DNA of 64,000 bases from Brachyhypopomus gauderio. Its lineage: Eukaryota; Chordata; Actinopteri; Gymnotiformes; Hypopomidae. Made by a program: the position numbers and the translations under genes. This document shows positions 1 to 64,000 of the stretch, in pieces. The notes under the pieces are model-generated. The model was not told where the DNA came from. It made no database searches and saw only the letters and a list, made by a program, of their open reading frames with translations. Positions within the stretch are counted from its first letter, which is position 1. Each line of letters opens with the position of its first letter. The stretch lies in the NCBI RefSeq assembly GCF_052324685.1, contig NC_135212.1, positions 49,501,898 to 49,565,897 on the forward strand, read 5' to 3'.

Positions 1-61
1 ACATGCGTGCTATGCACAATGGATTAGCAGTCCATCGCCTTAACCTCTCGGCCACCTCGTC
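1..61 (-). tRNA. tRNA-Ser(GCT), truncated by the window start
   Basis: The 5' portion of a tRNA-Ser(GCT) is present: acceptor 5' strand, D arm, anticodon arm with GCT, and the variable arm. Its T arm and 3' acceptor strand lie outside the window. The unit is colinear with the copy at about 27912-27972, where the T stem has a mismatch, so this copy is probably defective too. Confidence 0.85.
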
Positions 62-179
62 AATTACAGTTGTGTGTCGATTGCGATTTCAAAGATGCAA
101 ACACTTTCACAACACAAAAGCAGGCTTGTCTGACTTGTGGGTCCTGCACTTACATCAGGAGACACGATTGTCAGAAATT

Positions 180-186
180 AAAAAAA
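180..186 (-). terminator. Seven-T pol III terminator of the tRNA at 194-275
   Basis: A run of seven As on the plus strand gives TTTTTTT seven nucleotides after the discriminator base on the transcribed strand, a strong RNA polymerase III stop. This arrangement accompanies mainly the TTT-loop genes and the position-37 variants. Confidence 0.85.
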
Positions 187-193
187 GCAACAC

Positions 194-275
194 CGACGAA
201 GGTGGGATTCGAACCCACGCGTGCAAAGCACAATGGATTAGCAGTCCATCGCCTTAACCTCTCGGCCACCTCGTC
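194..275 (-). tRNA. tRNA-Ser(GCT), intact form with TTT variable-arm loop
   Basis: An 82-nt class II tRNA that decodes AGC and AGU serine codons. The acceptor stem pairs GACGAGG with CTTCGTC (one G-U pair), followed by discriminator G73. The D arm, a five-pair anticodon stem with loop CTGCTAA, a long variable arm (GTGC-TTT-GCAC) and a five-pair T stem with loop TTCGAAT are all intact. The A box TGGCCGAGAGG and B box GGTTCGAATCC match pol III internal promoter consensus. A seven-T terminator starts seven nucleotides after G73. This is the best-equipped unit type in the array; the same tRNA form recurs at 17405-17486 and 19331-19412, among others. Confidence 0.93.
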
Positions 276-407
276 AATTATGGTTGTGTGTCGATTGTGA
301 TTTCAAAGATGCAAACACTTTCACAGCACAAAAGCAGGCTTGTCTGACTTGTGGGTCCTGCACTTACATCAGGAGACACGATTGTCAGAAATTAAAAAAA
401 GCAACAC

Positions 408-489
408 CGACGAAGGTGGGATTCGAACCCACGCGTGCAAAGCACAATGGATTAGCAGTCCATCGCCTTAACGTCTCGGCCACCTCGTC
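408..489 (-). tRNA. tRNA-Ser(GCT), TTT-loop form with D-loop substitution
   Basis: Identical to the intact TTT-loop form except that the D-loop reads GAGACGTTAA instead of GAGAGGTTAA. This alters the end of the A box and one of the conserved D-loop guanines that contact the T loop. Folding and transcription may be weakened. The variant recurs in the related blocks near 28319-28400, 34311-34392 and 38591-38672, so it has been amplified with its block. Confidence 0.7.
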
Positions 490-621
490 GTTTGTGGTTG
501 TTTGTCGATAGCAATTTCAAAGAAGCAAGCACTTTCACAGCACAAAAGAAGGCCTTTCTGACTTGTGGGTCCTGTAGTTACAGCAGGAGACACGATTGTC
601 AGAAATTTAAAAAAGCAACAC

Positions 622-703
622 CGACGAAGGTAGGATTCGAACCCACAAGTGCTATGCATAATGGATTAGCAGTCCATCGCCTTACCCTCTCGGCCACCTT
701 GTC
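622..703 (-). tRNA. tRNA-Ser(GCT) variant with altered acceptor, D loop and variable arm
   Basis: The acceptor 5' strand is GACAAGG, giving an A-C mismatch at the fourth pair. The D loop reads GGGTAA rather than GGTTAA, and the variable arm and its junction differ (ATGCATAGCAC then TT). The T stem has an additional G-to-A change in its 3' strand in this copy only; the sister copy at 28533 lacks it. The anticodon loop is unchanged. Function is doubtful. Confidence 0.6.
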
Positions 704-1049
704 GTTTGTGGTTGTGTGTCGATTGCGATTTCAAAGATGCAAACACTTTCACAGCACAAAAGAAGGCTTATCTGACTTGTGGGTCCTGCACTTACACCAG
801 GAGACACGATTGTCAGAAATTAAAGAAAGCAACACCGACGAAGGTGGGATTCGAACCCACGCGTGCTATGCACAATGGATTAGCAGTCCATCGCCTTAAC
901 CTCTCGGCCACCTCGTCGTGTGTGGTTGAGTGTCGATAGCAATTTCAAAGAAGCAAACACTTTCACAGCACAAAAGAAGGCTTTTCTGACTTGTGGGTCC
1001 TGTAGTTACAGCAGGAGACACGATTGTCAGAAATTAAAGAAAGCAACAC

Positions 1050-1131
1050 AGACGAAGGTGGGATTCGAACACACACGTGCTATGCATAATGGATTAGCAG
1101 TCCATCGCCTTAATCTATCGGCCACCTTGTC
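1050..1131 (-). pseudogene. Probable tRNA-Ser(GCT) pseudogene, recurrent A-box-damaged class
   Basis: The A box region reads TGGCCGATAGA where intact copies have TGGCCGAGAGG. The acceptor fourth pair is A-C, and the T stem reads GTGTG against CCCAC, with a T-C mismatch. The anticodon arm is intact with GCT. Loss of A-box bases together with two stem mismatches makes this a likely pseudogene. The class is repeated many times (2334-2415, 4688-4769, 5330-5411, 14409-14490, 18047-18128 and later), showing that defective copies are amplified along with good ones. Confidence 0.75.
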
Positions 1132-1263
1132 GTTTGTGCTTGTGTGTCGATTGCGATTTCAAAGATGCAAACACTTTCACAGCACAAAAGCAGCCGTATA
1201 TGACTTGTGGGTCCTGCACTTACAACAGGAGACACGATTGTCAGAAATTAAAGAAAGCAACAC

Positions 1264-1345
1264 CGACGAAGGTGGGATTCTAACCCACGCGTGCTATGCA
1301 CAATGGATTAGCAGTCCATCCCCTTAACCTCTCGGCCACCTCGTC
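1264..1345 (-). pseudogene. Probable tRNA-Ser(GCT) pseudogene with broken T loop
   Basis: The T loop reads TTAGAAT instead of TTCGAAT, losing the near-invariant cytosine that is also the centre of the B box. The D stem 3' strand is GGG instead of GGC, creating a G-G mismatch. Anticodon GCT is kept. Both pol III promoter recognition and tertiary folding should suffer. The same T-loop lesion occurs without the D-stem change at 13981-14062. Confidence 0.75.
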
Positions 1346-1477
1346 GTTTGTGGTTGTGTGTCGATTGCGATTTCAAAGATGCAAACACTTTCACAGCACA
1401 AAAGGAGGCTTATCTGACTTGTGGGTCCTGCACTTATATCAGGAGACACGATTGTCAGAAATTAAAGAAAGCAACAC

Positions 1478-1559
1478 CGACGAAGGTGGGATTCGAACCC
1501 ACGCGTGCTATGCACAATTGATTAGCAGTCCATCGCCTTAACCTCTCGGCCACCTCGTC
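1478..1559 (-). tRNA. tRNA-Ser(GCT) variant with anticodon-stem mismatch
   Basis: Intact apart from the anticodon stem 3' strand, which reads TCAAT rather than TCCAT, giving a G-A mismatch in the middle of the stem. The boxes are intact, so transcription is plausible, but the product would have a weakened anticodon arm. The variant recurs at 29389-29470, 35381-35462 and 39661-39742. Confidence 0.6.
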
Positions 1560-1691
1560 GTTTGTGGTTGTGTGTCGATAGCAATTTCAAAGAAGCAAAC
1601 ACTTTCACAGCACAAAAGCAGCCGTATATGACTTGTTGGTCCTGCACTTACAACAGGAGACACGATTGTCAGAAATTAAAGAAAGCAACAC

Positions 1692-1773
1692 CGACGAAGG
1701 TGGGATTCGAACCCACGCGTGCTATGCACAATGGATTAGCAGTCCATCCACTTAACCTCTTGGCCACCTCGTC
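1692..1773 (-). pseudogene. Probable tRNA-Ser(GCT) pseudogene with disrupted D stem
   Basis: The D stem 3' strand is GTG where intact copies have GGC, leaving two of three D-stem pairs broken. The A box carries a G-to-A change (TGGCCAAGAGG). T arm, anticodon and acceptor are intact. It recurs at 4046-4127 and in later blocks. Confidence 0.65.
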
Positions 1774-1827
1774 GTTTGTGGTTGTGTGTCGATTGCGATT
1801 TCAAAGATGCAAACACTTTCACAGCAC

Positions 1828-1905
1828 AAAAGGAGGCTTATCTGACTTGTGGGTCCTGCACTTATATCAGGAGACACGATTGTCAGAAATTAAAGAAAGC
1901 AACAC
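1828..1905 (-). other. 3' trailer region of an ATA-loop tRNA with nested inverted repeats and distal TTTT
   Basis: Downstream of the tRNA at 1906-1987 the proximal T run is broken (TTTCTTT, 1892-1898). The following spacer holds two nested inverted repeats: outer GTCAGA (1882-1887) with TCTGAC (1841-1846), inner CAGGA (1868-1872) with TCCTG (1854-1858). TTTT follows at 1828-1831 on the transcribed strand. A read-through transcript could therefore be tRNA plus a short stem-loop ending at four Ts. Transcription is inferred, not seen. Some units break one arm, for example TATGAC for TCTGAC. Confidence 0.4.
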
Positions 1906-1987
1906 CGACGAAGGTGGGATTCGAACCCACGCGTGCTATGCACAATGGATTAGCAGTCCATCGCCTTAACCTCTCGGCCACCTCGTC
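1906..1987 (-). tRNA. tRNA-Ser(GCT), reference intact form with ATA variable-arm loop
   Basis: The commonest intact form. Reading the minus strand: acceptor 5' strand nt 1-7, A box at plus 1970-1980, anticodon stem ATGGA/TCCAT with loop CTGCTAA, anticodon GCT at plus 1952-1954, variable arm GTGC-ATA-GCAC, B box GGTTCGAATCC at plus 1917-1927, and T stem GTGGG/CCCAC. Discriminator is G73. Unlike the TTT-loop form, its 3' flank has TTTCTTT (plus 1892-1898) instead of an uninterrupted T run; the first run of four Ts is about 75 nt downstream (plus 1828-1831). Other exact copies include 836-917, 2120-2201, 3404-3485, 3618-3699, 3832-3913, 12911-12992 and 20187-20268. Confidence 0.93.
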
Positions 1988-2547
1988 AATTACAGTTGTG
2001 TGTCGATTGCGATTTCAAAGATGCAAACACTTTCACAGCACAAAAGGAGGCTTATCTGACTTGTGGGTCCTGCACTTATATCAGGAGACACGATTGTCAG
2101 AAATTAAAGAAAGCAACACCGACGAAGGTGGGATTCGAACCCACGCGTGCTATGCACAATGGATTAGCAGTCCATCGCCTTAACCTCTCGGCCACCTCGT
2201 CGTTTGTGGTTGTGTGTCGATAGCAATTTCAAAGAAGCAAACACTTTCACAGCACAAAAGAAGGCTTTTCTGACTTGTGGGTCCTGTAGTTACAGCAGGA
2301 GACACGATTGTCAGAAATTAAAGAAAGCAACACCGACGGAGGTGGGATTCGAACACACACGTGCTATGCATAATGGATTAGCAGTCCATCGCCTTAATCT
2401 ATCGGCCACCTTGTCGTTTGTGCTTGTGTGTCGATTGCGATTTCAAAGATGCAAACACTTTCACAGCACAAAAGCAGCCGTATATGACTTGTGGGTCCTG
2501 CACTTACAACAGGAGACACGATTGTCAGAAATTAAAGAAAGCAACAC

Positions 2548-2629
2548 CGACGAAGGTGGGATTCGAACCCACGCATGCTATGCACAATGGATTAGCAGTC
2601 CATCGCCTTAACCTCTCGGCCACCTCGTT
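2548..2629 (-). pseudogene. tRNA-Ser(GCT) variant with first acceptor pair broken
   Basis: The first transcribed base of the tRNA is A instead of G (plus strand cctcgtt), so the terminal acceptor pair becomes A-C. The base after the variable arm is also changed (GCATGCG instead of GCACGCG). The rest, including GCT, is intact. Loss of pair 1-72 should affect RNase P cleavage and charging. It recurs at 5544-5625 and 14623-14704. Confidence 0.55.
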
Positions 2630-2761
2630 GTTTGTGGTGGTGTGTTGATTGCGATTTCAAAGATGCAAACACTTTCACAGCACAAAAGGAGGCTTATCTG
2701 ACTTGTGGGTCCTGCTCTTATATCAGGAGACACGATTGTCAGAAATTAAAGAAAGCAACAC

Positions 2762-2843
2762 CGACGAAGGTGGGATTCGAACCCACGCATGCTATGCACA
2801 AGGGATTAGCAGTCCATCGCCTTAACCTCTCGGCCACCTCGTC
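2762..2843 (-). tRNA. tRNA-Ser(GCT) variant with T-C mismatch in anticodon stem
   Basis: The anticodon stem 3' strand is TCCCT rather than TCCAT, creating one T-C mismatch; the variable-arm junction is also altered. A and B boxes and acceptor are intact. This variant marks several blocks, including 5758-5839 and 14837-14918, and the 9-unit repeats at about 36.7, 42.9, 44.8, 49.3 and 51.2 kb. Confidence 0.6.
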
Positions 2844-2975
2844 AATTACAGTTGTGTGTCGATTGCGATTTCAAAGATGCAAACACTTTCACAGCACAAA
2901 AGGAGGCTTATCTGACTTGTGGGTCCTGCACTTACTTCAGGAGACACGATTGTCAGAAATTAAAGAAAACAACAC

Positions 2976-3057
2976 CGACAAATGTGGTATTCAAACCCAC
3001 GCGTGCAAAGCACAATGGATTAGCAGTCCATCGCCTTAACCTCTTGGCTACCTCGTC
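2976..3057 (-). pseudogene. Most diverged recurrent class, tRNA-Ser(GCT) pseudogene
   Basis: This class carries the most changes: acceptor 3' strand ATTTGTC (two disturbed pairs), T stem with a G-A mismatch, T loop TTTGAAT lacking the conserved cytosine, and position 9 plus the D arm changed (TAGCCAAGAGG). Anticodon GCT survives. Its 3' flank contains TTTTCTTT, so unlike the ATA-loop form it has a minimal four-T terminator. A sister class lacks one acceptor change (6614-6695, 13125-13206, 16977-17058). Both are repeated throughout the array. Confidence 0.75.
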
Positions 3058-3189
3058 GCTTGCGGTTTTGTGTCGATTGCGATTTCAAAGATGCAAACAC
3101 TTTCACAGCACAAAAGCAGCCGTATCTGACTTGTGGGTCCTGCACTTACACCAGGAGACACGATTGTCAGAAATTAAAAAAAGCAACAC

Positions 3190-3271
3190 CGACGAAGGTG
3201 GGATTCGAACACACGCGTGCTATGCACAATGGATAAGCAGTCCATCGCCTTAACCTCTCGGCCACCTCGTC
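3190..3271 (-). tRNA. tRNA-Ser(GCT) variant with T at position 37 and T-stem mismatch
   Basis: The anticodon loop reads CTGCTTA instead of CTGCTAA, so the base 3' of the anticodon is U in the RNA. In tRNAs reading A-starting codons this base is normally an adenosine carrying t6A, so decoding should be impaired. The T stem also has a G-to-T mismatch (GTGTG). The 3' flank has a seven-T terminator. It recurs at 6186-6267, 7042-7123 and 15265-15346, and in later blocks. Confidence 0.65.
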
Positions 3272-6200
3272 AATTATGGTTGTGTGTCGATTGCGATTTC
3301 AAAGATGCAAACACTTTCACAGCACAAAAGGAGGCTTATCTGACTTGTGGGTCCTGCACTTATATCAGGAGACACGATTGTCAGAAATTAAAGAAAGCAA
3401 CACCGACGAAGGTGGGATTCGAACCCACGCGTGCTATGCACAATGGATTAGCAGTCCATCGCCTTAACCTCTCGGCCACCTCGTCAATTACAGTTGTGTG
3501 TCGATTGCGATTTCAAAGATGCAAACACTTTCACAGCACAAAAGGAGGCTTATCTGACTTGTGGGTCCTGCACTTATATCAGGAGACACGATTGTCAGAA
3601 ATTAAAGAAAGCAACACCGACGAAGGTGGGATTCGAACCCACGCGTGCTATGCACAATGGATTAGCAGTCCATCGCCTTAACCTCTCGGCCACCTCGTCA
3701 ATTACAGTTGTGTGTCGATTGCGATTTCAAAGATGCAAACACTATCACAGCACAAAAGGAGGCTTATCTGACTTGTGGGTCCTGCACTTATATCAGGAGA
3801 CACGATTGTCAGAAATTAAAGAAAGCAACACCGACGAAGGTGGGATTCGAACCCACGCGTGCTATGCACAATGGATTAGCAGTCCATCGCCTTAACCTCT
3901 CGGCCACCTCGTCGTTTGTGGTTGTGTGTCGATAGCAATTTCAAAGAAGCAAACACTTTCACAGCACAAAAGCAGCCGTATATGACTTGTTGGTCCTGCA
4001 CTTACAACAGGAGACACGATTGTCAGAAATTAAAGAAAGCAACACCGACGAAGGTGGGATTCGAACCCACGCGTGCTATGCACAATGGATTAGCAGTCCA
4101 TCCACTTAACCTCTTGGCCACCTCGTCGTTTGTGGTTGTGTGTCGATTGCGATTTCAAAGATGCAAACACTTTCACAGCACAAAAGGAGGCTTATCTGAC
4201 TTGTGGGTCCTGCACTTATATCAGGAGACACGATTGTCAGAAATTAAAGAAAGCAACACCGACGAAGGTGGGATTCGAACCCACGCGTGCTATGCACAAT
4301 GGATTAGCAGTCCATCGCCTTAACCTCTCGGCCACCTCGTCAATTACAGTTGTGTGTCGATTGCGATTTCAAAGATGCAAACACTTTCACAGCACAAAAG
4401 GAGGCTTATCTGACTTGTGGGTCCTGCACTTATATCAGGAGACACGATTGTCAGAAATTAAAGAAAGCAACACCGACGAAGGTGGGATTCGAACCCACGC
4501 GTGCTATGCACAATGGATTAGCAGTCCATCGCCTTAACCTCTCGGCCACCTCGTCGTTTGTGGTTGTGTGTCGATAGCAATTTCAAAGAAGCAAACACTT
4601 TCACAGCACAAAAGAAGGCTTTTCTGACTTGTGGGTCCTGTAGTTACAGCAGGAGACACGATTGTCAGAAATTAAAGAAAGCAACACCGACGGAGGTGGG
4701 ATTCGAACACACACGTGCTATGCATAATGGATTAGCAGTCCATCGCCTTAATCTATCGGCCACCTTGTCGTTTGTGCTTGTGTGTCGATTGCGATTTCAA
4801 AGATGCAAACACTTTCACAGCACAAAAGGAGGCTTATCTGACTTGTGGGTCCTGCACTTATATCAGGAGACACGATTGTCAGAAATTAAAGAAAGCAACA
4901 CCGACGAAGGTGGGATTCGAACCCACGCGTGCTATGCACAATGGATTAGCAGTCCATCGCCTTAACCTCTCGGCCACCTCGTCAATTACAGTTGTGTGTC
5001 GATTGCGATTTCAAAGATGCAAACACTTTCACAGCACAAAAGGAGGCTTATCTGACTTGTGGGTCCTGCACTTATATCAGGAGACACGATTGTCAGAAAT
5101 TAAAGAAAGCAACACCGACGAAGGTGGGATTCGAACCCACGCGTGCTATGCACAATGGATTAGCAGTCCATCGCCTTAACCTCTCGGCCACCTCGTCGTT
5201 TGTGGTTGTGTGTCGATAGCAATTTCAAAGAAGCAAACACTTTCACAGCACAAAAGAAGGCTTTTCTGACTTGTGGGTCCTGTAGTTACAGCAGGAGACA
5301 CGATTGTCAGAAATTAAAGAAAGCAACACCGACGGAGGTGGGATTCGAACACACACGTGCTATGCATAATGGATTAGCAGTCCATCGCCTTAATCTATCG
5401 GCCACCTTGTCGTTTGTGCTTGTGTGTCGATTGCGATTTCAAAGATGCAAACACTTTCACAGCACAAAAGCAGCCGTATATGACTTGTGGGTCCTGCACT
5501 TACAACAGGAGACACGATTGTCAGAAATTAAAGAAAGCAACACCGACGAAGGTGGGATTCGAACCCACGCATGCTATGCACAATGGATTAGCAGTCCATC
5601 GCCTTAACCTCTCGGCCACCTCGTTGTTTGTGGTGGTGTGTTGATTGCGATTTCAAAGATGCAAACACTTTCACAGCACAAAAGGAGGCTTATCTGACTT
5701 GTGGGTCCTGCTCTTATATCAGGAGACACGATTGTCAGAAATTAAAGAAAGCAACACCGACGAAGGTGGGATTCGAACCCACGCATGCTATGCACAAGGG
5801 ATTAGCAGTCCATCGCCTTAACCTCTCGGCCACCTCGTCAATTACAGTTGTGTGTCGATTGCGATTTCAAAGATGCAAACACTTTCACAGCACAAAAGGA
5901 GGCTTATCTGACTTGTGGGTCCTGCACTTACTTCAGGAGACACGATTGTCAGAAATTAAAGAAAACAACACCGACAAATGTGGTATTCAAACCCACGCGT
6001 GCAAAGCACAATGGATTAGCAGTCCATCGCCTTAACCTCTTGGCTACCTCGTCGCTTGCGGTTTTGTGTCGATTGCGATTTCAAAGATGCAAACACTTTC
6101 ACAGCACAAAAGCAGCCGTATCTGACTTGTGGGTCCTGCACTTACACCAGGAGACACGATTGTCAGAAATTAAAAAAAGCAACACCGACGAAGGTGGGAT

Positions 6201-6827
6201 TCGAACACACGCGTGCTATGCACAATGGATAAGCAGTCCATCGCCTTAACCTCTCGGCCACCTCGTCAATTATGGTTGTGTGTCGATTGCGATTTCAAAG
6301 ATGCAAACACTTTCACAGCACAAAAGGAGGCTTATCTGACTTGTGGGTCCTGCACTTATATCAGGAGACACGATTGTCAGAAATTAAAGAAAGCAACACC
6401 GACGAAGGTGGGATTCGAACCCACGCGTGCTATGCACAATGGATTAGCAGTCCATCGCCTTAACCTCTCGGCCACCTCGTCAATTACAGTTGTGTGTCGA
6501 TTGCGATTTCAAAGATGCAAACACTTTCACAGCACAAAAGGAGGCTTATCTGACTTGTGGGTCCTGCACTTATATCAGGAGACAAGATTGTCAGAAATTA
6601 AAGAAAACAACACCGACGAATGTGGTATTCAAACCCACGCGTGCAAAGCACAATGGATTAGCAGTCCATCGCCTTAACCTCTTGGCTACCTCGTCGCTTG
6701 TGGTTTTGTGTCGATTGCGATTTCAAAGATGCAAACACTTTCACAGCACAAAAGCAGCCGAATCTGACTTGTGGGTCCTGCACTTACACCAGGAGACACG
6801 ATTGTCAGAAATTAAAAAACGCAACAC

Positions 6828-6909
6828 CGACGAAGGTGGGATTCGAACACACGCGTGCTATGCACAATGGATTAGCAGTCCATCGCCTTAACCTCTCGGC
6901 CACCTCGTC
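6828..6909 (-). tRNA. tRNA-Ser(GCT) with single T-stem mismatch
   Basis: Matches the intact ATA-loop form except for GTGTG in the 5' strand of the T stem, giving one T-C mismatch next to the closing pair. The 3' flank reads TTTTTT after GCG, a six-T terminator. It could still be expressed. The same class recurs at 17191-17272, 19117-19198 and in each 8/9-unit repeat. Confidence 0.6.
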
Positions 6910-7041
6910 AATTATGGTTGTGTGTCGATTGCGATTTCAAAGATGCAAACACTTTCACAACACAAAAGCAGGCTTGTCTGACTTGTGGGTCCTGCACTTA
7001 CATCAGGAGACACGATTGTCAGAAATTAAAAAAAGCAACAC

Positions 7042-7123
7042 CGACGAAGGTGGGATTCGAACACACGCGTGCTATGCACAATGGATAAGCAGTCCATCGC
7101 CTTAACCTCTCGGCCACCTCGTC
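7042..7123 (-). tRNA. Last tRNA-Ser(GCT) copy left of the transposon, position-37 variant
   Basis: This copy belongs to the class with anticodon loop CTGCTTA and a T-stem mismatch. It is followed on the plus strand by 120 bp of spacer before the element's TTAA. The transposon lies upstream (5') of this tRNA by 116 bp plus the TTAA, so it does not touch the gene's internal promoter. Confidence 0.6.
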
Positions 7124-7239
7124 AATTACAGTTGTGTGTCGATTGCGATTTCAAAGATGCAAACACTTTCACAGCACAAAAGCAGCCGTATCTGACTTGT
7201 GGGTACTGCACTTACACCAGGAGAAACGATTGTCAGAAA

Positions 7240-7243
7240 TTAA
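7240..7243. repeat. TTAA target-site duplication, left
   Basis: TTAA at the left junction. It belongs to the conserved spacer motif AAATTAAA found 3' of each tRNA, and the sequence changes from array to element immediately after it. Confidence 0.93.
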
Positions 7244-7255
7244 CACTAGGAACCC
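7244..7255 (+). repeat. Left terminal inverted repeat of piggyBac
   Basis: CACTAGGAACCC at the element tip. It pairs with the reverse complement of the right end, CACTGGAACTCC, allowing one one-base gap on each side. Confidence 0.8.
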
Positions 7256-7262
7256 GACGGCC

Positions 7263-7276
7263 GCGAAAATTTTCGC
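7263..7276. repeat. Subterminal 14-bp palindrome
   Basis: GCGAAAATTTTCGC is a perfect palindrome 19 bp inside the left tip. piggyBac elements commonly need subterminal repeats for transposase binding; this is a candidate, but I see no identical copy at the right end. Confidence 0.4.
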
Positions 7277-7867
7277 AAGGCTTAGTAAGGTCCATGTAGC
7301 CCACTCCCCTGCTGTGAAGAGATTAACGCCCATTGTCTTGGTAATGCGGTGGAAGCGTCTCACCCCCAGCTCATACGCCTGCCAAAGCACAAGCGGCTCA
7401 CCTCCAAGCTCATACAAGGCACCAAACGTGATACTTCACGAAAAACTTGGTTACAAACAAGCAGACTGTATATGTTACCGATCCTACAACAAACAGCGGA
7501 AATTTTGTAGACTCGTGTTTCAAATGAGTTTCTCAAATGAGTCCCGTCAAACAATAAAAATAAATAAAATTGTCTGAACCTCTTTGTATATTGTTTGAAG
7601 CTCTTTGTATATTTACTACACTATATAATATTTGTTACACTTTCTGTTTCCGCGTTTGAATTCGCGTTTGAAAAGCTAAGAAATTATATGGCGCAATTAT
7701 ATATATGGCTGATAAATGTTGTGATCTAAACAGCAGACTGGAAAAGGAGAGGAAAAGACAGGAAGAACAAATTCATGTGCTGTAAAACAACTTTATTTTG
7801 ATCAAACATGGATGTCTATTCCGGGTTTCTTGAAGTGGAATGTCAAGAAAGTTGAGGGTGTCTTGAA
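7277..7867. other. Left subterminal region of the transposon, no gene recognised
   Basis: No convincing coding sequence. It contains short direct duplications such as CTCTTTGTATATT twice near 7580-7620, CGCGTTTGAA twice near 7650-7675 and TCAAATGAGT twice near 7518-7542, plus AT-rich sequence. It probably serves as the element's left non-coding arm. Confidence 0.5.
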
Positions 7868-8360
7868 GTTGAGGGTGTACTCGCCAGATGCACTTGCCGC
7901 ATGCAACACACGCGTTGATGCTGTGGAGAACAATTCAAGGTACACCTTACATTTTGAATAAAATCTTTCAGAAGACAAAAATACGTAACATATGTGGTGT
8001 TACGTATGTAGGCCTACTTATCAACGTACCTTCATGTAGTTGTAGCCAACAGTTGCTACACAGCCAGGGTGTACTCGCTGCATGCAACGGGCCACCGGCG
8101 TGTTCCTGCGTGCACTGTGTATGCACGCACCTTCATGATGTCTGTCAACGGCGCACTGCAAAGAACAAAGTACATGTTATATTTTGAACGAATTTATTCA
8201 TGTGTACCAGCCAGGGACCCTCTTTCTTACATTTGCGGCAGGTTCATCGTTCATCGCTGCCAAGGTCAACGGGCCACCGGCGTGTTCCTGCGCGCACTGT
8301 GTATGCACGCACAGAAGTACATGTTATATTTAGAACGAATTCATTCATGTATAAATTGAT
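7868..8360 (-). pseudogene. Degenerate partial copies of the transposase 3' end
   Basis: Three scrambled fragments resemble the exon 3/intron 2 region of the transposase in the same orientation. 7868-7985 matches parts of 8746-8793 then 9101-9127. 8021-8206 matches 8666-8717 then 9001-9135. 8207-8360 matches 8712-8750 then about 8970-9150. The middle copy retains the splice acceptor (CTTTGCAG before TGCGCC) but carries a four-base insertion just after it, so it would be out of frame. Each copy has lost most of the zinc-finger coding segment. Confidence 0.7.
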
Positions 8361-8580
8361 TCTGTGAAAATGTCACAGGCATGGGTCATAACAGAACGGG
8401 AATCCAATTCCAGCAACCATGAGAAAAATAACCAGCAACCACGACGAGAAATAAACAGAGGACTAACACGGAAACAGACATGAAATGGCAGGAGATGCGG
8501 GGCAGACCGTGACACCGGGTTTCATGATGTGCGACTGTGGAACAGAAAGAGAAGAGATTTTTGGTTATGTTCAAATAATA
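8361..8580. other. Transposon spacer, no gene recognised
   Basis: AG-rich sequence between the degenerate 3'-end copies and the microsatellite. I see no coding potential, RNA gene or strong repeat. Confidence 0.4.
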
Positions 8581-8667
8581 GTGTGTGTGTATATATATGT
8601 GTGTGTGATTGGTTGTCTGTATATATATATAATATATTTATATATATATATATATATATAAATATAC
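8581..8667. repeat. TG/TA microsatellite just 3' of the transposase stop codon
   Basis: Alternating GT and AT dinucleotide tracts: (GT)n then (AT)n, again (GT)n, and a long (TA)n run ending at about 8667. It begins within 15 bp downstream of the transposase stop at 8682, so it would lie in the 3' untranslated region. I found no convincing polyadenylation signal between stop and tract. Confidence 0.85.
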
Positions 8668-8681
8668 TTATCGACGTACCT

Positions 8682-10552: not shown

Positions 10553-10640
10553 ACAGGATAGTAGTGAAAATGTAAGTCGCCTGCCTTTGGGTTTCAGCTT
10601 TTATCATGACTCTGAAGAACACACCCACAACAGCGCATAC

Positions 10641-10658
10641 TAATTATACTTTATTATA
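10641..10658 (-). promoter_or_regulatory. Possible TATA elements of the transposase gene
   Basis: On the minus strand TATAATAA (10658-10651) and TATAATTA (10648-10641) lie about 90-105 bp upstream of the chosen ATG. Position is reasonable for a pol II core promoter, but AT-rich motifs are common in this element. Confidence 0.25.
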
Positions 10659-10714
10659 ATAGGTGGCGCTTCACACATAACGCCGAAACCGAAACCGGGC
10701 TAATCCCCTGCATA

Positions 10715-10746
10715 CACGGGAACAATAAAAGTTGATTGGACCCGTG
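10715..10746. repeat. CACGGG/CCCGTG inverted repeat, first copy
   Basis: CACGGG (10715-10720) and CCCGTG (10741-10746) form a six-pair hairpin with a 20-nt loop. A second small hairpin, CACGG-CAAT-CCGTG, follows at about 10756-10769. The same inverted repeat recurs inside the 137-bp repeat at 11701-11723 and 11838-11860. Confidence 0.6.
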
Positions 10747-10770
10747 ATAATGGTTCACGGCAATCCGTGA

Positions 10771-11615: not shown

Positions 11616-11620
11616 TGCTG

Positions 11621-11970
11621 CTATTGAAGTGCATACACAAGAAAATCTGGGACGCTTGCTTCATACATAACGCCAATACCACGCTAATGATAATGTGTTT
11701 CACGGGAACAATATGAACCCGTGATAATGGTTGGTTCAGCCATGTAAATGTGTGGCGCTATTGAAGTGCATACACAAGAAAATCTGGGACGTTTGCTTCA
11801 TACATAACGCCAATACCACGCTAATGATAATGTGTTTCACGGGAACAATATGGACCCGTGATAATGGTTGGTTCAGCCATGTAAATGTGTGGCGCTATTG
11901 AAGTGCATGCACAAGAAAATCTGAGACGCTTGCTTCATACATAACGCCAATACCACGCTAATGATAATGG
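11621..11970. repeat. 137-bp direct repeat with hairpin, two full units and a partial
   Basis: Units begin CTATTGAAGTGCAT at 11621, 11758 and 11895, a constant 137-bp period. The first two contain CACGGG...CCCGTG inverted repeats (11701-11723, 11838-11860). The third lacks that hairpin and joins unrelated sequence at about 11970. It resembles the single copy around 10660-10770, including CATAACGCC and CCCGTGATAATGG. Confidence 0.8.
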
Positions 11971-12240: not shown

Positions 12241-12252
12241 GGAGTTCCAGTG
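12241..12252 (-). repeat. Right terminal inverted repeat of piggyBac
   Basis: Reads CACTGGAACTCC inward from the right tip on the minus strand, matching the left terminal repeat imperfectly. Confidence 0.8.
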
Positions 12253-12256
12253 TTAA
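12253..12256. repeat. TTAA target-site duplication, right
   Basis: TTAA at the right junction, followed directly by AGAAAGC, the expected continuation of the array spacer. Confidence 0.93.
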
Positions 12257-12268
12257 AGAAAGCAACAC

Positions 12269-55200: not shown

Positions 55201-55689
55201 GCACAAAAGCAGCCGAATCTGACTTGTGGGTCCTGCACTTACACCAGGAGACACGATTGTCAGAAATTAAAAAACGCAACACCGACGAAGGTGGGATTCG
55301 AACACACGCGTGCTATGCACAATGGATTAGCAGTCCATCGCCTTAACCTCTCGGCCACCTCGTCAATTATGGTTGTGTGTCGATTGCGATTTCAAAGATG
55401 CAAACACTTTCACAACACAAAAGCAGGCTTGTCTGACTTGTGGGTCCTGCACTTACATCAGGAGACACGATTGTCAGAAATTAAAAAAAGCAACACCGAC
55501 GAAGGTGGGATTCGAACCCACGCGTGCAAAGCACAATGGATTAGCAGTCCATCGCCTTAACCTCTCGGCCACCTCGTCAATTATGGTTGTGTGTCGATTG
55601 TGATTTCAAAGATGCAAACACTTTCACAGCACAAAAGCAGGCTTGTCTGACTTGTGGGTCCTGCACTTACATCAGGAGACACGATTGTC
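49270..55689 (-). repeat. 30-unit higher-order repeat, copy 2
   Basis: Tandem copy at an offset of 6,420 bp. Over the whole 8.15-kb match I found only two differences: 41277 C versus 47697 T, and 47168 C versus 53588 G. At 55690 the match breaks (agcaatacc replaces agcaacacc), marking the junction. A 13-unit (2,782 bp) partial repeat of its end follows to about 56.8 kb. Confidence 0.9.
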
Positions 55690-57636
55690 AGAAATTAAAA
55701 AAAGCAATACCGACGAAGGTGGGATTCGAACACACGCTTGCTATGCACAATGGATTAGCAGTCCATCGCCTTAACCTCTCGGCCACCTCGTCGTGTGTGG
55801 TTGTGTGTCGATAGCAATTTCAAAGAAGCAAACACTTTCACAGCACAAAAGAAGGCTTTTCTGACTTGTGGGTCCTGTAGTTACAGCAGGAGACACAATT
55901 GTCAGAAATTAAAGAAAGCAACACCGACGAAGGTGGGATTCGAACACACACGTGCTATGCATAATGGATTAGCAGTCCATCGCCTTAATCTATCGGCCAC
56001 CTCGTCGTTTGTGGTTGTGTGTCAATTGCGATTTCAAAGATGCAAACACTTTCACAGCACAAAAGGAGGCTTATCTGACTTGTGGGTCCTGCACTTATAT
56101 CAGGAGACACGATTGTCAGAAATTAAAGAAAGCAACACCGACGAAGGTGGGATTCGAACCCACGCGTGCTATGCACAATGGATTAGCAGTCCATCGCCTT
56201 AACCTCTCGGCCACCTCGTCGTTTGTGGTTGTGTGTCGATAGCAATTTCAAAGAAGCAAACACTTTCACAGCACAAAAGCAGCCGTATATGACTTGTTGG
56301 TCCTGCACTTACAACAGGAGACACGATTGTCAGAAATTAAAGAAAGCAACACCGACGAAGGTGGGATTCGAACCCACGCGTGCTATGCACAATGGATTAG
56401 CAGTCCATCCCCTTAACCTCTTGGCCACCTCGTCGTTTGTGGTTGTGTGTCGATTGCGATTTCAAAGATGCAAACACTTTCACAGCACAAAAGGAGGCTT
56501 ATCTGACTTGTGGGTCCTGCACTTATATCAGGAGACACGATTGTCAGAAATTAAAGAAAGCAACACCGACGAAGGTGGGATTCAAACCCACGCGTGCTAT
56601 GCACAATGGATTAGCAGTCCATCGCCTTAACCTCTCTGCCACCTCGTCAATTACAGTTGTGTGTCGATTGCGATTTCAAAGATGCAAACACTTTCACAGC
56701 ACAAAAGGAGGCTTATCTGACTTGTGGGTCCTGCACTTATATCAGGAGACACGATTGTCAGAAATTAAAGAAAGCAACACCGACGAAGGTGGGATTCGAA
56801 CCCACGCGTGCTATGCACAATGGATTAGCAGTCCATCGCCTTAACCTCTCGGCCACCTCGTCAATTACAGTTGTGTGTCGATTGCGATTTCAAAGATGCA
56901 AACACTATCACAGCACAAAAGGAGGCTTATCTGACTTGTGGGTCCTGCACTTATATCAGGAGACACGATTGTCAGAAATTAAAGAAAGCAACACCGACGA
57001 AGGTGGGATTCGAACCCACGCGTGCTATGCACAATGGATTAGCAGTCCATCGCCTTAACCTCTCGGCCACCTCGTCAATTACAGTTGTGAGTCGATTGCG
57101 ATTTCAAAGATGCAAACACTTTCACAGCACAAAAGGAGGCTTATCTGACTTGTGGGTCCTGCACTTACTTCAGGAGACAAGATTGTCAGAAATTAAAGAA
57201 AACAACACCGACGAATGTGGTATTCAAACCCACGCGTGCAAAGCACAATGGATTAGCAGTCCATCGCCTTAACCTCTTGGCTACCTCGTCGCTTGTGGTT
57301 TTGTGTCGATTGCGATTTCAAAGATGCAAACACTTTCACAGCACAAAAGCAGCCGAATCTGACTTGTGGGTCCTGCACTTACACCAGGAGACACGATTGT
57401 CAGAAATTAAAAAAAGCAACACCGACGAAGGTGGGATTCAAACACACGCGTGCTATGCACAATGGATTAGCAGTCCATCGCCTTAACCTCTCGGCCACCT
57501 CGTCAATTATGGTTGTGTGTCGATTGCGATTTCAAAGATGCAAACACTTTCACAACACAAAAGCAGGCTTGTCTGACTTGTGGGTCCTGCACTTACATCA
57601 GGAGACACGATTGTCAGAAATTAAAAAAAGCAACAC

Positions 57637-57718
57637 CGACGAAGGTGGGACTCGAACCCACGCGTGCAAAGCACAATGGATTAGCAGTCCATCGCCTTAA
57701 CCTCTCGGCCACCTCGTC
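57637..57718 (-). tRNA. tRNA-Ser(GCT), TTT-loop form with T-loop A-to-G change
   Basis: The T loop reads TTCGAGT. The changed base is at the variable position of the B box (GGTTCGANTCC), so promoter and fold should be preserved. The remaining cloverleaf is intact and a seven-T terminator follows. I regard it as a plausible functional gene. Confidence 0.75.
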
Positions 57719-59348
57719 AATTATGGTTGTGTGTCGATTGTGATTTCAAAGATGCAAACACTTTCACAGCACAAAAGCAGGCTTGTCTGACTTGTGGGTC
57801 CTGCACTTACATCAGGAGACACGATTGTCAGAAATGAAAAAAAGCAACACCGACGAAGGTGGGATTCGAACCCACGCGTGCAAAGCACAATGGATTAGCA
57901 GTCCATCGCCTTAACCTCTCGGCCACCTCGTCGTTTGTGGTTGTGTGTCGATAGCAATTTCAAAGAAGCAAGCACTTTCACAACACAAAAGCAGGCTTGT
58001 CTGACTTGTGGGTCCTGCACTTACATCAGGAGACACGATTGTCAGAAATTAAAAAAAGCAACACCGACGAAGGTGGGATTCGAACCCACGCGTGCAAAGC
58101 ACAATGGATTAGCAGTCCATCGCCTTAACGTCTCGGCCACCTCGTCGTTTGTGGTTGTGTGTCGATAGCAATTTCAAAGAAGCAAGCACTTTCACAGCAC
58201 AAAAGAAGGCCTTTCTGACTTGTGGGTCCTGTAGTTACAGCAGGAGACACGATTGTCAGAAATTAAAGAAAGCAACACCGACGAAGGTGGGATTCGAACC
58301 CACAAGTGCTATGCATAATGGATTAGCAGTCCATCGCCTTACCCTCTCGGCCACCTTGTCGTTTGTGGTTGTGTGTCGATTGCGATTTCAAAGATGCAAA
58401 CACTTTCACAGCACAAAAGAAGGCTTATCTGACTTGTGGGTCCTGCACTTACACCAGGAGACACGATTGTCAGAAATTAAAGAAAGCAACACCGACGAAG
58501 GTGGGATTCGAACCCACGCGTGCTATGCACAATGGATTAGCAGTCCATCGCCTTAACCTCTCGGCCACCTCGTCGTGTGTGGTTGTGTGTCGATAGCAAT
58601 TTCAAAGAAGCAAACACTTTCACAGCACAAAAGAAGGCTTTTCTGACTTGTGGGTCCTGTAGTTACAGCAGGAGACACGATTGTCAGAAATTAAAGAAAG
58701 CAACACCGACGAAGGTGGGATTCGAACACACACGTGCTATGCATAATGGATTAGCAGTCCATCGCCTTAATCTATCGGCCACCTTGTCGTTTGTGCTTGT
58801 GTGTCGATTTCGATTTCAAAGATGCAAACACTTTCACAGCACAAAAGCAGCCGTATATGACTTGTGGGTCCTGCACTTACAACAGGAGACACGATTGTCA
58901 GAAATTAAAGAAAGCAACACCGACAAAGGTGGGATTCTAACCCACGCGTGCTATGCACAATGGATTAGCAGTCCATCCCCTTAACCTCTCGGCCACCTCG
59001 TCGTTTGTGGTTGTGTGTCGATTGCGATTTCAAAGATGCAAACACTTTCACAGCACAAAAGGAGGCTTATCTGACTTGTGGGTCCTGCACTTATATCAGG
59101 AGACACGATTGTCAGAAATTAAAGAAAGCAACACCGACGAAGGTGGGATTCGAACCCACGCGTGCTATGCACAATGGATTAGCAGTCCATCGCCTTAACC
59201 TCTCGGCCACCTCGTCGTTTGTGGTTGTGTGTCGATAGCAATTTCAAAGAAGCAAACACTTTCACAGCACAAAAGCAGCCGTATATGACTTGTTGGTCCT
59301 GCACTTACAACAGGAGACACGATTGTCAGAAATTAAAGAAAGCAACAC

Positions 59349-59430
59349 CGACGAAGGTGGGATTCGAACCCACGCGTGCTATGCGCAATGGATTAGCAGT
59401 CCATCCCCTTAACCTCTTGGCCACCTCGTC
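59349..59430 (-). tRNA. tRNA-Ser(GCT) variant with D-stem and variable-arm changes
   Basis: The D stem 3' strand is GGG (G-G mismatch), the A box has TGGCCAAGAGG, and the variable arm reads TGCGC-ATA-GCAC, breaking one arm pair. The anticodon is GCT. The variable-arm substitution appears private to this copy among its block relatives. Confidence 0.5.
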
Positions 59431-59978
59431 GTTTGTGGTTGTGTGTCGATTGCGATTTCAAAGATGCAAACACTTTCACAGCACAAAAGGAGGCTTATCT
59501 GACTTGTGGGTCCTGCACTTATATCAGGAGACACGATTGTCAGAAATTAAAGAAAGCAACACCGACGAAGGTGGGATTCGAACCCACGCGTGCTATGCAC
59601 AATGGATTAGCAGTCCATCGCCTTAACCTCTCGGCCACCTCGTCAATTACAGTTGTGTGTCGATTGCGATTTCAAAGATGCAAACACTTTCACAGCACAA
59701 AAGGAGGCTTATCTGACTTGTGGGTCCTGCACTTATATCAGGAGACACGATTGTCAGAAATTAAAGAAAGCAACACCGACGAAGGTGGGATTCGAACCCA
59801 CGCGTGCTATGCACAATGGATTAGCAGTCCATCGCCTTAACCTCTCGGCCACCTCGTCAATTACAGTTGTGTGTCGATTGCGATTTCAAAGATGCAAACA
59901 CTTTCACAGCACAAAAGCAGCCGTATCTGACTTGTGGGTACTGCACTTACACCAGGAGAAACGATTGTCAGAAATTAA

Positions 59979-62483
59979 AGAAAGCAACACCGACGAAGGT
60001 GGGATTCGAACCCACGCGTGCTATGCATAATGGATTAGCAGTTCATCGTCTTAACCTCTCGGCCACCTCGTCAATTACAGTTGTGTGTCGATTGCGATTT
60101 CAAAGATGCAAACACTTTCACAGCACAAAAGGAGGCTTGTCTGACTTGTGGGTCCTGCACTTACATCAGAAGACACGATTGTCAGAAATTTAAAAAAGCA
60201 ACACCGACGAAGGTGGGATTCGAACCCACGCGTGCTATGCAAAATGGATTAGCAGTCCATCACCTTAACCTCTAGGCCACCTCGTCGTTTGTGGTTGTGT
60301 GTCGATAGCAATTTCAAAGAAGCAAACACTTTCACAGCACAAAAGAAGGCTTTTTTGACTTGTGGGTCCTGTAGTTACAGCAGGAGACACGATTGTCAGA
60401 AATTAAAGAAAGCAACAACGACGAAGGTGGGATTCGAACCCAAACGGGCTATGCATAATGGATTAGCAGTCCATCGCCTTAATCTCTCGGCCACCTTGTC
60501 GTTTGTGGTTGTGTGTCGATTGCGATTTCAAAGATGCAAACACTTTCACAGCACAAAAGCAGCCGTATATGACTTGTGGGTACTGCACTTACAACAGGAG
60601 ACACGATTGTCAGAAATTAAGGAAAGCAACACCGACGAAGGTGGGATTCGAACCCACGCGTGCTATGCACAATGGATTAGCAGTCCATCGCCTTAACCTC
60701 TCGGCCACCTCGTCAATTACAGTTGTGTGTCGATTGCGATTTCAAAGATGCAAACACTTTCACAGCACAAAAGGAGGCTTATCTGACTTGTGGGTCCTGC
60801 ACTTACTTCAGGAGACACGATTGTCAGAAATTAAAGAAAACAACACCGACGAATGTGGTATTCAAACCCACGCGTGCAAAGCACAATGGATTAGCAGTCC
60901 ATCGCCTTAACCTCTTGGCTACCTCGTCGCTTGTGGTTTTGTGTCGATTGCGATTTCAAAGATGCAAACACTTTCACAGCACAAAAGCAGCCGTATCTGA
61001 CTTGTGGGTACTGCACTTACACCAGGAGACACGATTGTCAGAAATTAAAGAAAGCAACACCGACGAAGGTGGGATTCGAACCCACGCGTGCTATGCATAA
61101 TGGATTAGCAGTCCATCTCCTTAACCTCTCGGCCACCTCGTCAATCACGGTTGTGTGTCGATTGCGATTTCAAAGATGCAAAGACTTTCACAGCACAAAA
61201 GGAGGCTTGTCTGACTTGTGGGTCCTGCACTTACATCAGGAGACACGATTGTCAGAAATTTAAAAAAGCAACACCGACGAAGGTGGGATTCGAACCCACG
61301 CGAGCTATGCAAAATGGATAAGCAGTCCATCACCTTAACCTCTAGGCCACCTCGTCGTTTGTGGTTGTGTGTCGATAGCAATTTCAAAGAAGCAAACACT
61401 TTCACAGCACAAAAGAAGGCTTTTTTGACTTGTGGGTCCTGCACTTACATCAGGAGACACGATTGTCAGAAATTTAAAAAAGCAACACCGACGAAGGTGG
61501 GATTCGAACCCACGCGTGCTATGCAAAATTGATTAGCAGTCCATCACCTTAACCTCTAGGCCACCTCGTCGTTTGTGGTTGTTTGTCGATTGCGATTTCA
61601 AAGATGCAAACACTTTCACAGCACAAAAGAAGGCTTATCTGACTTGTGGGTCCTGCACTTACACCAGGAGACACGATTGTCAGAAATTAAAGAAAGCAAC
61701 ACCGACGAAGGTGGGATTCTAACCCACGCGTGCTATGCACAATGGATTAGCAGTCCATCGCCTTAACCTCTCGGCCACCTCGTCAATTACGGTTGTGTGT
61801 CGATTGCGATTTCAAAGATGCAAATACTTTCACAGCACAAAAGGAGGCGTATCTGACTTGTGGGTCCTGCACTTATATCAGGAGACACGATGGTCAGAAA
61901 TTAAAGAAAGCAACACCGACGAAGGTGGGATTCGAACCCACGCGTGCTATGCACTATGGATTAGCAGTCCATCGCCTTAACCTCTCGGCCACCTCGTCGT
62001 TTGTGGTTGTGTGTCGATAGCAATTTCAAAGAAGCAAACACTTTCACAGCACAAAAGAAGGCTTTTCTGACTTGTGGGTCCTGTAGTTACAGCAGGAGAC
62101 ACGATTGTCAGAAATTAAAGAAAGCAACACCGACGGAGGTGGGATTCGAACACACACGTGCTATGCATAATGGATTAGCAGTCCATCGCCTTAATCTATC
62201 GGCCACCTTGTCGTTTGTGCTTGTGTGTCGATTGCGATTTCAAAGATGCAAACACTTTCACAGCACAAAAGCAGCCGTATATGACTTGTGGGTCCTGCAC
62301 TTACAACAGGAGACACGATTGTCAGAAATTAAAGAAAGCAACACAGACGAAGGTGGGATTCGAACCCACGCATGCTATGCACAATGGATTAGCAGTCCAT
62401 CGCCTTAACCTCTCGGCCACCTCATTGTTTGTGGTGGTGTGTCGATTGCGATTTCAAAGATGCAAACACTTTCACAGCACAAA
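59979..62483 (-). repeat. Paralogous copy of the transposon's right flank
   Basis: Colinear with 12257-14761 at an offset of 47,722 bp (223 units), sharing rare variants such as the GAC D stem, CAGAAGACACG in the spacer and GGGC in the variable arm. To the left it continues into 59823-59978, which matches 7088-7243 at the same offset plus 5,013 bp. This block is therefore an unoccupied version of the insertion locus. Confidence 0.9.
59991..60072 (-). tRNA. tRNA-Ser(GCT) at the unoccupied sister of the transposon site
   Basis: This copy is colinear with 12269-12350 and shares its rare D-stem change (GAC). It has one extra difference, A for G in the anticodon stem (ATGAA). Its spacer carries the uninterrupted TTAA at 59975-59978, where the left-arm relative holds piggyBac. 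Confidence 0.65.
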
Positions 62484-63842
62484 AGAAGGCTTTTCTGACT
62501 TGTGGGTCCTGTAGTTACAGCAGGAGACACGATTGTCAGAAATTAAAGAAAGCAACACCGACGGAGGTGGGATTCGAACACACACGTGCTATGCATAATG
62601 GATTAGCAGTCCATCGCCTTAATCTATCGGCCACCTTGTCGTTTGTGCTTGTGTGTCGATTGCGATTTCAAAGATGCAAACACTTTCACAGCACAAAAGC
62701 AGCCGTATATGACTTGTGGGTCCTGCACTTACAACAGGAGACACGATTGTCAGAAATTAAAGAAAGCAACACCGACGAAGGTGGGATTCGAACCCACGCA
62801 TGCTATGCACAATGGATTAGCAGTCCATCGCCTTAACCTCTCGGCCACCTCATTGTTTGTGGTGGTGTGTCGATTGCGATTTCAAAGATGCAAACACTTT
62901 CACAGCACAAAAGGAGGCTTATCTGACTTGTGGGTCCTGCACTTATATCAGGAGACACGATTGTCAGAAATTAAAGAAAGCAACACCGACGAAGGTGGGA
63001 TTCGAACCCACAAGTGCTATGCATAATGGATTAGCAGTCCATCGCCTTACCCTCTCGGCCACCTTGTCGTTTGTGGTTGTGTGTCGATTGCGATTTCAAA
63101 GATGCAAACACTTTCACAGCACAAAAGAAGGCTTATCTGACTTGTGGGTCCTGCACTTACACCAGGAGACACGATTGTCAGAAATTAAAGAAAGCAACAC
63201 CGACGAAGGTGGGATTCGAACCCACGCGTGCTATGCACAATGGATTAGCAGTCCATCGCCTTAACCTCTCGGCCACCTCGTCGTGTGTGGTTGTGTGTCG
63301 ATAGCAATTTCAAAGAAGCAAACACTTTCACAGCACAAAAGAAGGCTTTTCTGACTTGTGGGTCCTGTAGTTACAGCAGGAGACACGATTGTCAGAAATT
63401 AAAGAAAGCAACACCGACGAAGGTGGGATTCGAACACACACGTGCTATGCATAATGGATTAGCAGTCCATCGCCTTAATCTATCGGCCACCTTGTCGTTT
63501 GTGCTTGTGTGTCGATTGCGATTTCAAAGATGCAAACACTTTCACAGCACAAAAGGAGGCTTATCTGACTTGTGGGTCCTGCACTTATATCAGGAGACAC
63601 GATTGTCAGAAATTAAAGAAAGCAACACCGACGAAGGTGGGATTCGAACCCACGCGTGCTATGCACAATGGATTAGCAGTCCATCGCCTTAACCTCTCGG
63701 CCACCTCGTCAATTACAGTTGTGTGTCGATTGCGATTTCAAAGATGCAAACACTTTCACAGCACAAAAGCAGCCGTATATGACTTGTGGGTACTGCACTT
63801 ACAACAGGAGACACGATTGTCAGAAATTAAGGAAAGCAACAC

Positions 63843-63924
63843 CGACGAAGGTGGGATTCGAACCCACGCGTGCTATGCACAATGGATTAGCAGTTCATCG
63901 CCTTAACCTCTCGGCCACCTCGTC
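63843..63924 (-). tRNA. Last complete tRNA-Ser(GCT) copy in the window
   Basis: Matches the intact ATA-loop form except for ATGAA in the anticodon stem 5' strand, giving an A-C mismatch. Its 3' flank reads TTTCCTT, so no four-T terminator lies close by. The spacer continues to the window end without change of pattern. Confidence 0.65.
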
Positions 63925-64000
63925 AATTACAGTTGTGTGTCGATTGCGATTTCAAAGATGCAAACACTTTCACAGCACAAAAGGAGGCTTATCTGACTTG

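Follow-up and report, generated by a model that had tools for sequence, protein, structure and literature searches.

Can a tRNA gene that has been multiplied into a satellite-like array still serve as a tRNA gene and, if so, through how many of its copies? The question is raised by a 64,000-bp stretch of the genome of the gymnotiform fish Brachyhypopomus gauderio (positions 49,501,898-49,565,897 of contig C2 in an assembly of 796.5 Mb and 840 contigs; hereafter, the window), which lies within a giant tandem array of genes for tRNA-Ser with the anticodon GCT. The array is real. Throughout the genome, its 18-base anticodon arm has 3,104 copies in one orientation and 2 in the opposite one, compared with 0 and 0 for the backwards control, so chance is not an issue. 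Judged from the sequence of its units, the array may well be a tandem gene family comparable to rDNA, in which few units would be productive, perhaps only in the egg. We hold this interpretation with moderate confidence and favor it over that of an inert satellite. That the array is the sole source of this tRNA would be a stronger form compatible with it; the readings overlap, and the probabilities that we attach to them do not sum to one.

Extent and growth of the array

In the window, ARAGORN identified 275 tRNA genes, all of which (275/275) were tRNA-Ser(GCT) on the minus strand, and no other tRNA type was called in these 64 kb. The Rfam model RF00005 also produced 127 + 148 = 275 matches, with scores of 38.6-66.5 bits against a gathering score of 29. 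These results agree with a sequence-only reading of the window, in which 275 complete units on a single strand, without any other tRNA type, had been counted. That reading had described a very large single-isoacceptor tandem array running past both ends of the window, and the array does start at C2:49,480,599 and break off inside a tRNA near 49,905,680, spanning ~425 kb, with a second array on contig C40. The single truncated unit that it reported is present at bases 1-62 but merely marks the window edge, and the array is not uninterrupted: it contains a piggyBac-type transposon that had been missed (Table 1). All 275 tRNAs are in exact 214-bp register, which is also the period reported by Tandem Repeats Finder (TRF), and each 214-bp unit consists of an 82-nt tRNA and a 132-bp spacer in which, as in the tRNA, no short repeat was reported by TRF. 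A homogeneous tDNA cluster has been defined by neighboring tRNA genes that belong to one isoacceptor family and are separated by less than 1000 nt (PMC2888827). The 275 Ser(GCT) genes of the window are spaced in this way except across the transposon.

A continuous piece of 264 kb that includes the window (C2:49,461,898-49,725,897) was read, and counts of units given below refer to this piece unless stated otherwise. It contains 1033 units between 49,480,599 and 49,723,943, one of which is split by an insert. The spacing is exactly 214 bp for 1025 of the 1026 uninterrupted neighbors and 213 bp for the remaining one, no unit was found on the plus strand of the piece, and 1028 of the 1032 ARAGORN calls are Ser(GCT), while the remaining 4 have the same body with a variant anticodon. 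Probes of C2 at 49,830,000, 49,850,000, 49,870,000, and 49,890,000 are still array, and the contig ends at 49,948,280. The C2 array, of which ~243 kb were read, is estimated to comprise ~1,840 units (1033 read and ~806 estimated, assuming 5% inserts). No telomere repeat was seen by eye in the last kilobase of C2. To the left of the array, at C2:49,470,000-49,471,500, lies a tandem repeat with a unit of ~170 bp (by eye). The flanks also contain motifs of interspersed repeats that resemble those of ray-finned fishes.

The 264-kb piece accounts for 838 of the 3,104 anticodon arms and the whole C2 array is expected to hold ~1,490, so that about half should lie elsewhere. Patterns made from variants matched C40 (2,256,775 bp) at 1 of 37 places and at 18 of 23 places, the rest being all on C2. 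Probes of C40 fell within array at 150,000, 300,000, 400,000, and 419,500-421,500, and showed no array at 1, 500,000, 600,000, 800,000, and 1,000,000. We infer that C40 holds all the missing copies. The genome-wide total is estimated at ~3,800 units, if the exact-arm fraction of 0.81 holds everywhere. A 13-base counting pattern (3,225 and 22 matches) was dropped because its backwards control was noisy (280 and 132). The spacer and tRNA patterns had 0 exact matches in viral_contigs and the tRNA pattern had 0 in genome_contigs, in line with an animal origin. The dispersed copies of a tRNA-derived short interspersed nuclear element (SINE) were not found, as whole-unit matches were all on C2 among the matches listed, which include none on C40 either; that the opposite orientation holds only 2 anticodon arms genome-wide is a further point against such an element.

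The 1025 full units comprise 264 distinct sequences, and 586 of them belong to blocks of 8 or more units that are repeated exactly, with a maximum of 47 units (10 kb). Unit-to-unit identity is flat at ~0.93 for separations of 1 to 700 units, and one piggyBac insertion has two copies that are separated by 24,915 bp and mismatch at 1 of 5,143 bp. The exact block repeats, the duplicated insertion, and the flat identity demonstrate growth by the copying of multi-unit blocks, transposons included, as expected from unequal exchange. A regular higher-order repeat was considered and rejected: offsets of 107, 33, and 9 units ranked highest in the window, yet their identities (0.944, 0.942, and 0.941) are barely above the background of ~0.93, which indicates a mosaic of block copies with no fixed super-unit. 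One single-base length change was found among the 1033 units vs. 200 distinct substitutions, far below the number of indels expected if they made up 5-10% of changes; a length constraint or biased repair is possible.

The many exact block repeats, together with a run of 5,000 N inside the array at C2:49,684,898, could also be expected if a short array had been inflated by the assembler. This is very improbable given the 264 distinct units among 1025, the transposon insertions that serve as anchors, and the second array on C40, where the 8 complete units read match 0 of the 264 C2 haplotypes. The array is therefore probably not an assembly artifact.

Intactness of the units and pattern of change

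A unit was regarded as clean when all its stems were paired (G-U pairs allowed), twelve conserved positions were kept, and the A and B boxes matched. Under these strict rules 358 of the 1033 units were clean (355 with the anticodon GCT and 3 with GCA). When the variable arm was ignored, 414 were clean, 724 had at most one fault, and 309 had at least two. In the window, 97 of 275 units were clean, 102 when the variable arm was ignored, and 69 were identical to the consensus. The cloverleaf, conserved bases, and A and B boxes of a functional tRNA gene are found together in the clean units but not in the rest, and one or more changes expected to weaken folding or the RNA polymerase III (Pol III) boxes are present in ~60-65% of the units that were read. 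The strict B box was retained in 696 of the 1033 units, and one identical mature sequence was common to 234. As for Pol III terminators, a run of at least four T residues begins no more than 25 nt from the 3' end in 361 of 1025 units; the first such run starts at offset 74 in 662 units, 2 units have no such run, and weaker terminators exist. The consensus has a centroid fold in the form of a cloverleaf that includes a variable arm, from which its minimum-energy fold departs in the D arm and the variable arm (z-score -2.27). The mature tRNA of the array differs from the vertebrate type in the D loop (GAGAGG rather than GAGTGG) and in the variable loop (ATA or TTT rather than CTC). By these measures a minority of the units, perhaps larger than the strict count, could work.

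The 82 tRNA sites carry 92 distinct changes and the 129 spacer sites carry 102, and expected counts were derived from rates by CpG and transition class pooled from the two halves. Damaging changes numbered 62 vs. 52 expected and harmless ones 30 vs. 31 expected; with the variable arm ignored the damaging changes were 54 vs. 46 expected, and with spacer-only rates 62 vs. 47 expected. Damaging changes thus show no depletion, and most copies therefore evolve in the manner of a satellite. Neither these counts nor a test of copy number supported strong purifying selection on the tRNA half, and changes at the anticodon were not significantly depleted (p 0.28 for 2 alleles; p 0.056 for the whole loop). 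The tRNA has a lower mean mismatch rate (3.5%) than the spacer (4.7%). The commonest 82-nt haplotype reaches 22.6% of units at the exact tRNA window, compared with 10.0-15.8% in the reported spacer windows; in windows shifted off the tRNA it makes up 14.1-22.6%. Selection on a subset of units is thus at most weak. CpG transitions are found at 0.91 of possible sites vs. 0.31 for other transitions, a pattern expected of methylated DNA.

The exact 214-bp period, the block duplication, and the lack of depletion of damaging alleles are all features of satellite DNA. It is possible, although rather doubtful, that the array is an inert heterochromatic satellite whose unit merely contains a tRNA gene, spreads by unequal exchange, and adds nothing to the tRNA pool. 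Besides the lack of depletion of damaging alleles (62 vs. 52 expected), the faults found in 675 of the 1033 units by the strict criteria (619 without the variable arm), the position of the array near a contig end with the ~170-bp repeat on its left, and the tolerance of anticodon mutants would all be accommodated by an inert satellite. Against it are the 234 identical mature tRNAs and the finding of no intact gene elsewhere for this tRNA, which is essential. The sequence-only reading had offered a selfish or structural satellite as one possible nature of the array, and this description fits most units, given that the clean ones are a minority of 358-414 among 1033 and that damaging changes are undepleted. 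Equal supply of tRNA by all copies is disfavored. The presence of a working minority is supported by the 234 identical mature sequences and by the peak of the commonest haplotype at the tRNA window.

The third anticodon base is changed, with the arm otherwise exact, in 23 units genome-wide (21 GCA and 2 GCG; 5 on C2 and 18 on C40). The GCA units, at least 21 in number, carry a cysteine anticodon in a serine body and lie at C2:49,645,239, 49,670,063, and 49,673,487, with 18 at C40:423,409-479,302; the 3 on C2 are otherwise clean. Because the anticodon is not recognized by seryl-tRNA synthetase, such units, if transcribed, would lead to the insertion of serine at cysteine codons. That they have survived suggests that these units, at least, are either silent or tolerated.

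Sources of tRNA-Ser(GCT) and possible roles of the array

An exact vertebrate-type 5' half has 1 copy in the genome, on C14, which lacks a T arm (by eye), and the vertebrate-type anticodon and variable arms have 2 copies, on C14 and C3. In the C3 copy the B box is changed and extra bases precede the last acceptor strand (by eye); adjoining it is a stretch that resembles tRNA-like or SINE sequence (L065 bases 160-225). Neither copy is called by ARAGORN. A 45-base vertebrate-type pattern with up to 2 mismatches had 2 forward and 172 reverse matches. Among the matches listed, C14 had 0 mismatches, followed only by C2 array units at 2; the second forward match must be C3, as its sequence has 2 mismatches. 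Genome pattern searches found no intact isolated tRNA-Ser(GCT) gene outside the arrays, minus-strand copies that resemble the array being indistinguishable in these searches.

These observations make it possible, if only tentatively, that no tRNA-Ser(GCT) gene of the genome works except those in the two arrays (~3,800 units, of which, in the part that was read, a third or somewhat more are clean). If so, the essential decoding of AGC and AGU codons would have moved wholly into a satellite, and older dispersed genes would persist only as decayed remnants, of which those on C14 and C3 are examples. That the arrays alone would serve all tissues is likewise a tentative proposal. It gains from the finding that both plus-strand matches of the exact 18-base anticodon arm are explained by the half gene on C14 and the broken gene on C3, and from the 45-base pattern being exact only at the C14 half gene and then at 2 mismatches among the matches listed. 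It is weakened in that any copy on the minus strand that lies outside the two arrays but has their sequence would be invisible in these counts, hidden among the 3,104, and in that a looser pattern had two plus-strand matches, of which only one was placed. Moreover, the C14 and C3 remnants, although without ARAGORN calls, are above the Rfam gathering score of 29 (31.1 bits for C14 and 35 bits for C3, the latter match covering part of the model), and the assembly has gaps.

In the interpretation that we prefer, that of a gene array with few productive units, a tRNA-Ser(GCT) gene with a short flank has turned into a satellite-like tandem family. As in a 5S-rDNA-type array, its copies would be many, with few mattering at once, and exchange among them, and not selection acting on individual copies, would keep them alike. 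Much of the array would be silent most of the time, methylated and heterochromatic. The clean units would be transcribed, probably in the oocyte as with the maternal clusters of zebrafish, to fill the pool for AGC and AGU codons, and this minority would supply most of whatever tRNA the array makes.

The closest published parallel is provided by those zebrafish clusters. In zebrafish, the tRNAs of the egg and early embryo are encoded in repetitive clusters and the later ones by scattered genes (PMC11417395), and the large clusters are heterochromatic and nearly fully CpG-methylated in early embryos (PMC11574265). Both systems involve thousands of clustered tRNA genes, for which the link to the egg, the CpG methylation, and the heterochromatin are described on the zebrafish side. 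The zebrafish clusters, however, hold a large repertoire (5,227 genes, 60%, chromosome 4), whereas the array described here has one isoacceptor in a 214-bp unit. The B. gauderio array does consist of multiple copies in a highly repetitive region, as maternal-type tRNA genes do. Of the isolated counterparts, which in zebrafish serve later stages, the 2 that were placed are both broken, and one plus-strand match is unplaced. By this analogy, the array may have a maternal-type, egg-related role.

Several observations weigh against this interpretation. More units may work than the strict count suggests, because all 275 units of the window are called by ARAGORN and pass the Rfam gathering score and, outside the variable arm, 724 of the 1033 units show no more than a single fault. 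The copy number of damaging alleles tends to be lower, but not significantly so (p 0.20 and 0.07; 0.46, 0.44, and 0.056), so that selection on a subset of units is not demonstrated. CpG transversions are raised as well (0.43 vs. 0.25), and the CpG signal is therefore not one of pure deamination. The GCA units, if their sequence is a guide, argue against broad transcription of the array. The rule derived from zebrafish predicts an intact isolated gene for later stages, and none was found here. By analogy, the methylation of the zebrafish clusters in embryos would speak for silence at that stage.

A more specific role, proposed in the sequence-only reading, is extra supply for the serine-rich yolk protein phosvitin, if made from AGC and AGU codons; it is quite improbable. 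The anticodon GCT does read AGC and AGU codons, but nothing beyond that speaks for such a role. The yolk precursor of fish is made in the liver, whereas the clustered tRNAs of zebrafish are tied to eggs, and many copies of the array are damaged.

Other repeated genes share some properties with the array. Homogeneous tDNA clusters occur in many eukaryotes, and clustered genes make up 65% of the tDNAs of zebrafish and 87% of those of stickleback (PMC2888827). Like the array, they consist of the same isoacceptor within 1000 nt in parallel orientation and turn over rapidly, but most are small according to the survey (PMC2888827), compared with ~1,840 units at one locus (1033 read, the others estimated) here. 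In Entamoeba, long tandem arrays with 1 to 5 tRNA genes per unit, such as that of Arg-TCT, amount to ~4,500 genes, and some of them, as here, contain a single tRNA type (PMC2652664). The authors suggested that many copies may be silent and saw no clear evidence of pseudogenes; the spacers of E. histolytica contain short tandem repeats (PMC2652664). By contrast, the array has ~60-65% faulty units and no TRF repeat within its unit. A variable-number tandem repeat at human 1q23.3 also consists of tandem tRNA genes and has an unstable copy number in humans, but its unit is 7.3 kb and present 9-43 times per allele (PMC4041453). The oocyte-type 5S rRNA arrays of Xenopus and zebrafish resemble the array in being high-copy repeats of a Pol III gene, and 5S arrays of this type are thought to serve the egg; they encode rRNA and their stage-specific use has been published, while for the tRNA-Ser(GCT) array such use is only proposed (PMC5513064, PMC11417395).

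A literature search found no report of a pure tRNA-Ser(GCT) array of this size, which is not proof of absence. The array belongs to a known kind and is remarkable for its purity, its scale, and the isolated gene that was not found. Large fish tRNA arrays have been hard to judge partly because GtRNAdb predictions set aside very-high-copy tRNAs (PMC11417395). The locus is an unusually clean case: a single isoacceptor is encoded in a single type of 214-bp unit, its mature tRNA has bases that are specific to the array, and an intact copy has so far been found nowhere else. It could help to decide whether arrays of this kind are silent as satellites, supply a tRNA specifically to the egg, or are its exclusive source. 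It is also a tRNA locus that evolves like rDNA, with block exchange and many faulty units.

Transposons within the array and other tRNA loci

The sole interruption of the array in the window is the piggyBac-type insert, which adds 5,013 bp to the unit spacing (Table 1). It has both the DDE_Tnp_1_7 transposase and the TTAA at either end that characterize piggyBac elements, and its short terminal sequences match each other. Its transposase frame also matched the solved structures 6x67 "Transposase" (E 1.9e-47), which we take to be piggyBac, and 9c0f "piggyBat transposase" (E 1.2e-20). We read the two transposase frames as probably linked by a GT...AG intron. Tandem repeats of 123 and 137 bp are found inside the element at 10,770-11,575 and 11,620-11,969 of the window.

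Table 1. Coordinates, in window positions, of the array segments and of the inserted transposon.
Feature	Position	Strand	Basis
Array segment, 33 complete tRNA-Ser(GCT) units and a unit cut by the window start	1..7239	-	214-bp units
First complete tRNA-Ser(GCT), the other 274 being in the same 214-bp register	193..276	-	
Example of a high-scoring unit, 63.9 bits, a score common to many units	836..917	-	Rfam
TTAA, left edge of insert, in spacer	7240..7243	.	read from sequence
piggyBac-type transposon, ends CACTAGGAAC / GTTCCAGTG, TTAA-flanked	7244..12252	-	
Frame with the last part of the PF13843 profile (positions 311-349), 20 bits, below the 22.4 cut-off	8685..9107	-	
Transposase reading frame, PF13843 DDE_Tnp_1_7, E 2.2e-59	9151..10161	-	profile search
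TTAA, right edge of insert	12253..12256	.	read from sequence
Array segment, 242 tRNA-Ser(GCT) units, block repeats at offsets of, e.g., 7,062 and 1,926 bp	12253..64000	-	214-bp period

In the 264-kb piece, a second TTAA-flanked element follows C2:49,717,448, with a partly read sibling after 49,724,141, and a third lies at the D-loop TTAA of one unit at C2:49,581,144. At least three different TTAA-type elements have thus inserted into the array, two sharing one spacer TTAA of the unit as insertion site and the third using that of the D loop, which makes the array a repeated target of piggyBac-like elements. The other interruptions of the piece are an insert resembling a long interspersed nuclear element, which ends in TGAT repeats, and the N run.

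Two further tRNA loci were noticed in the same genome. A tRNA gene cluster on C7 (24,156,421-24,287,056) has many of its genes at multiples of ~1,219 bp, and a mixed array at C71:313,593-453,242 has a unit of ~971 bp with Leu(TAG), Glu(CTC) on the opposite strand, and Lys(TTT).

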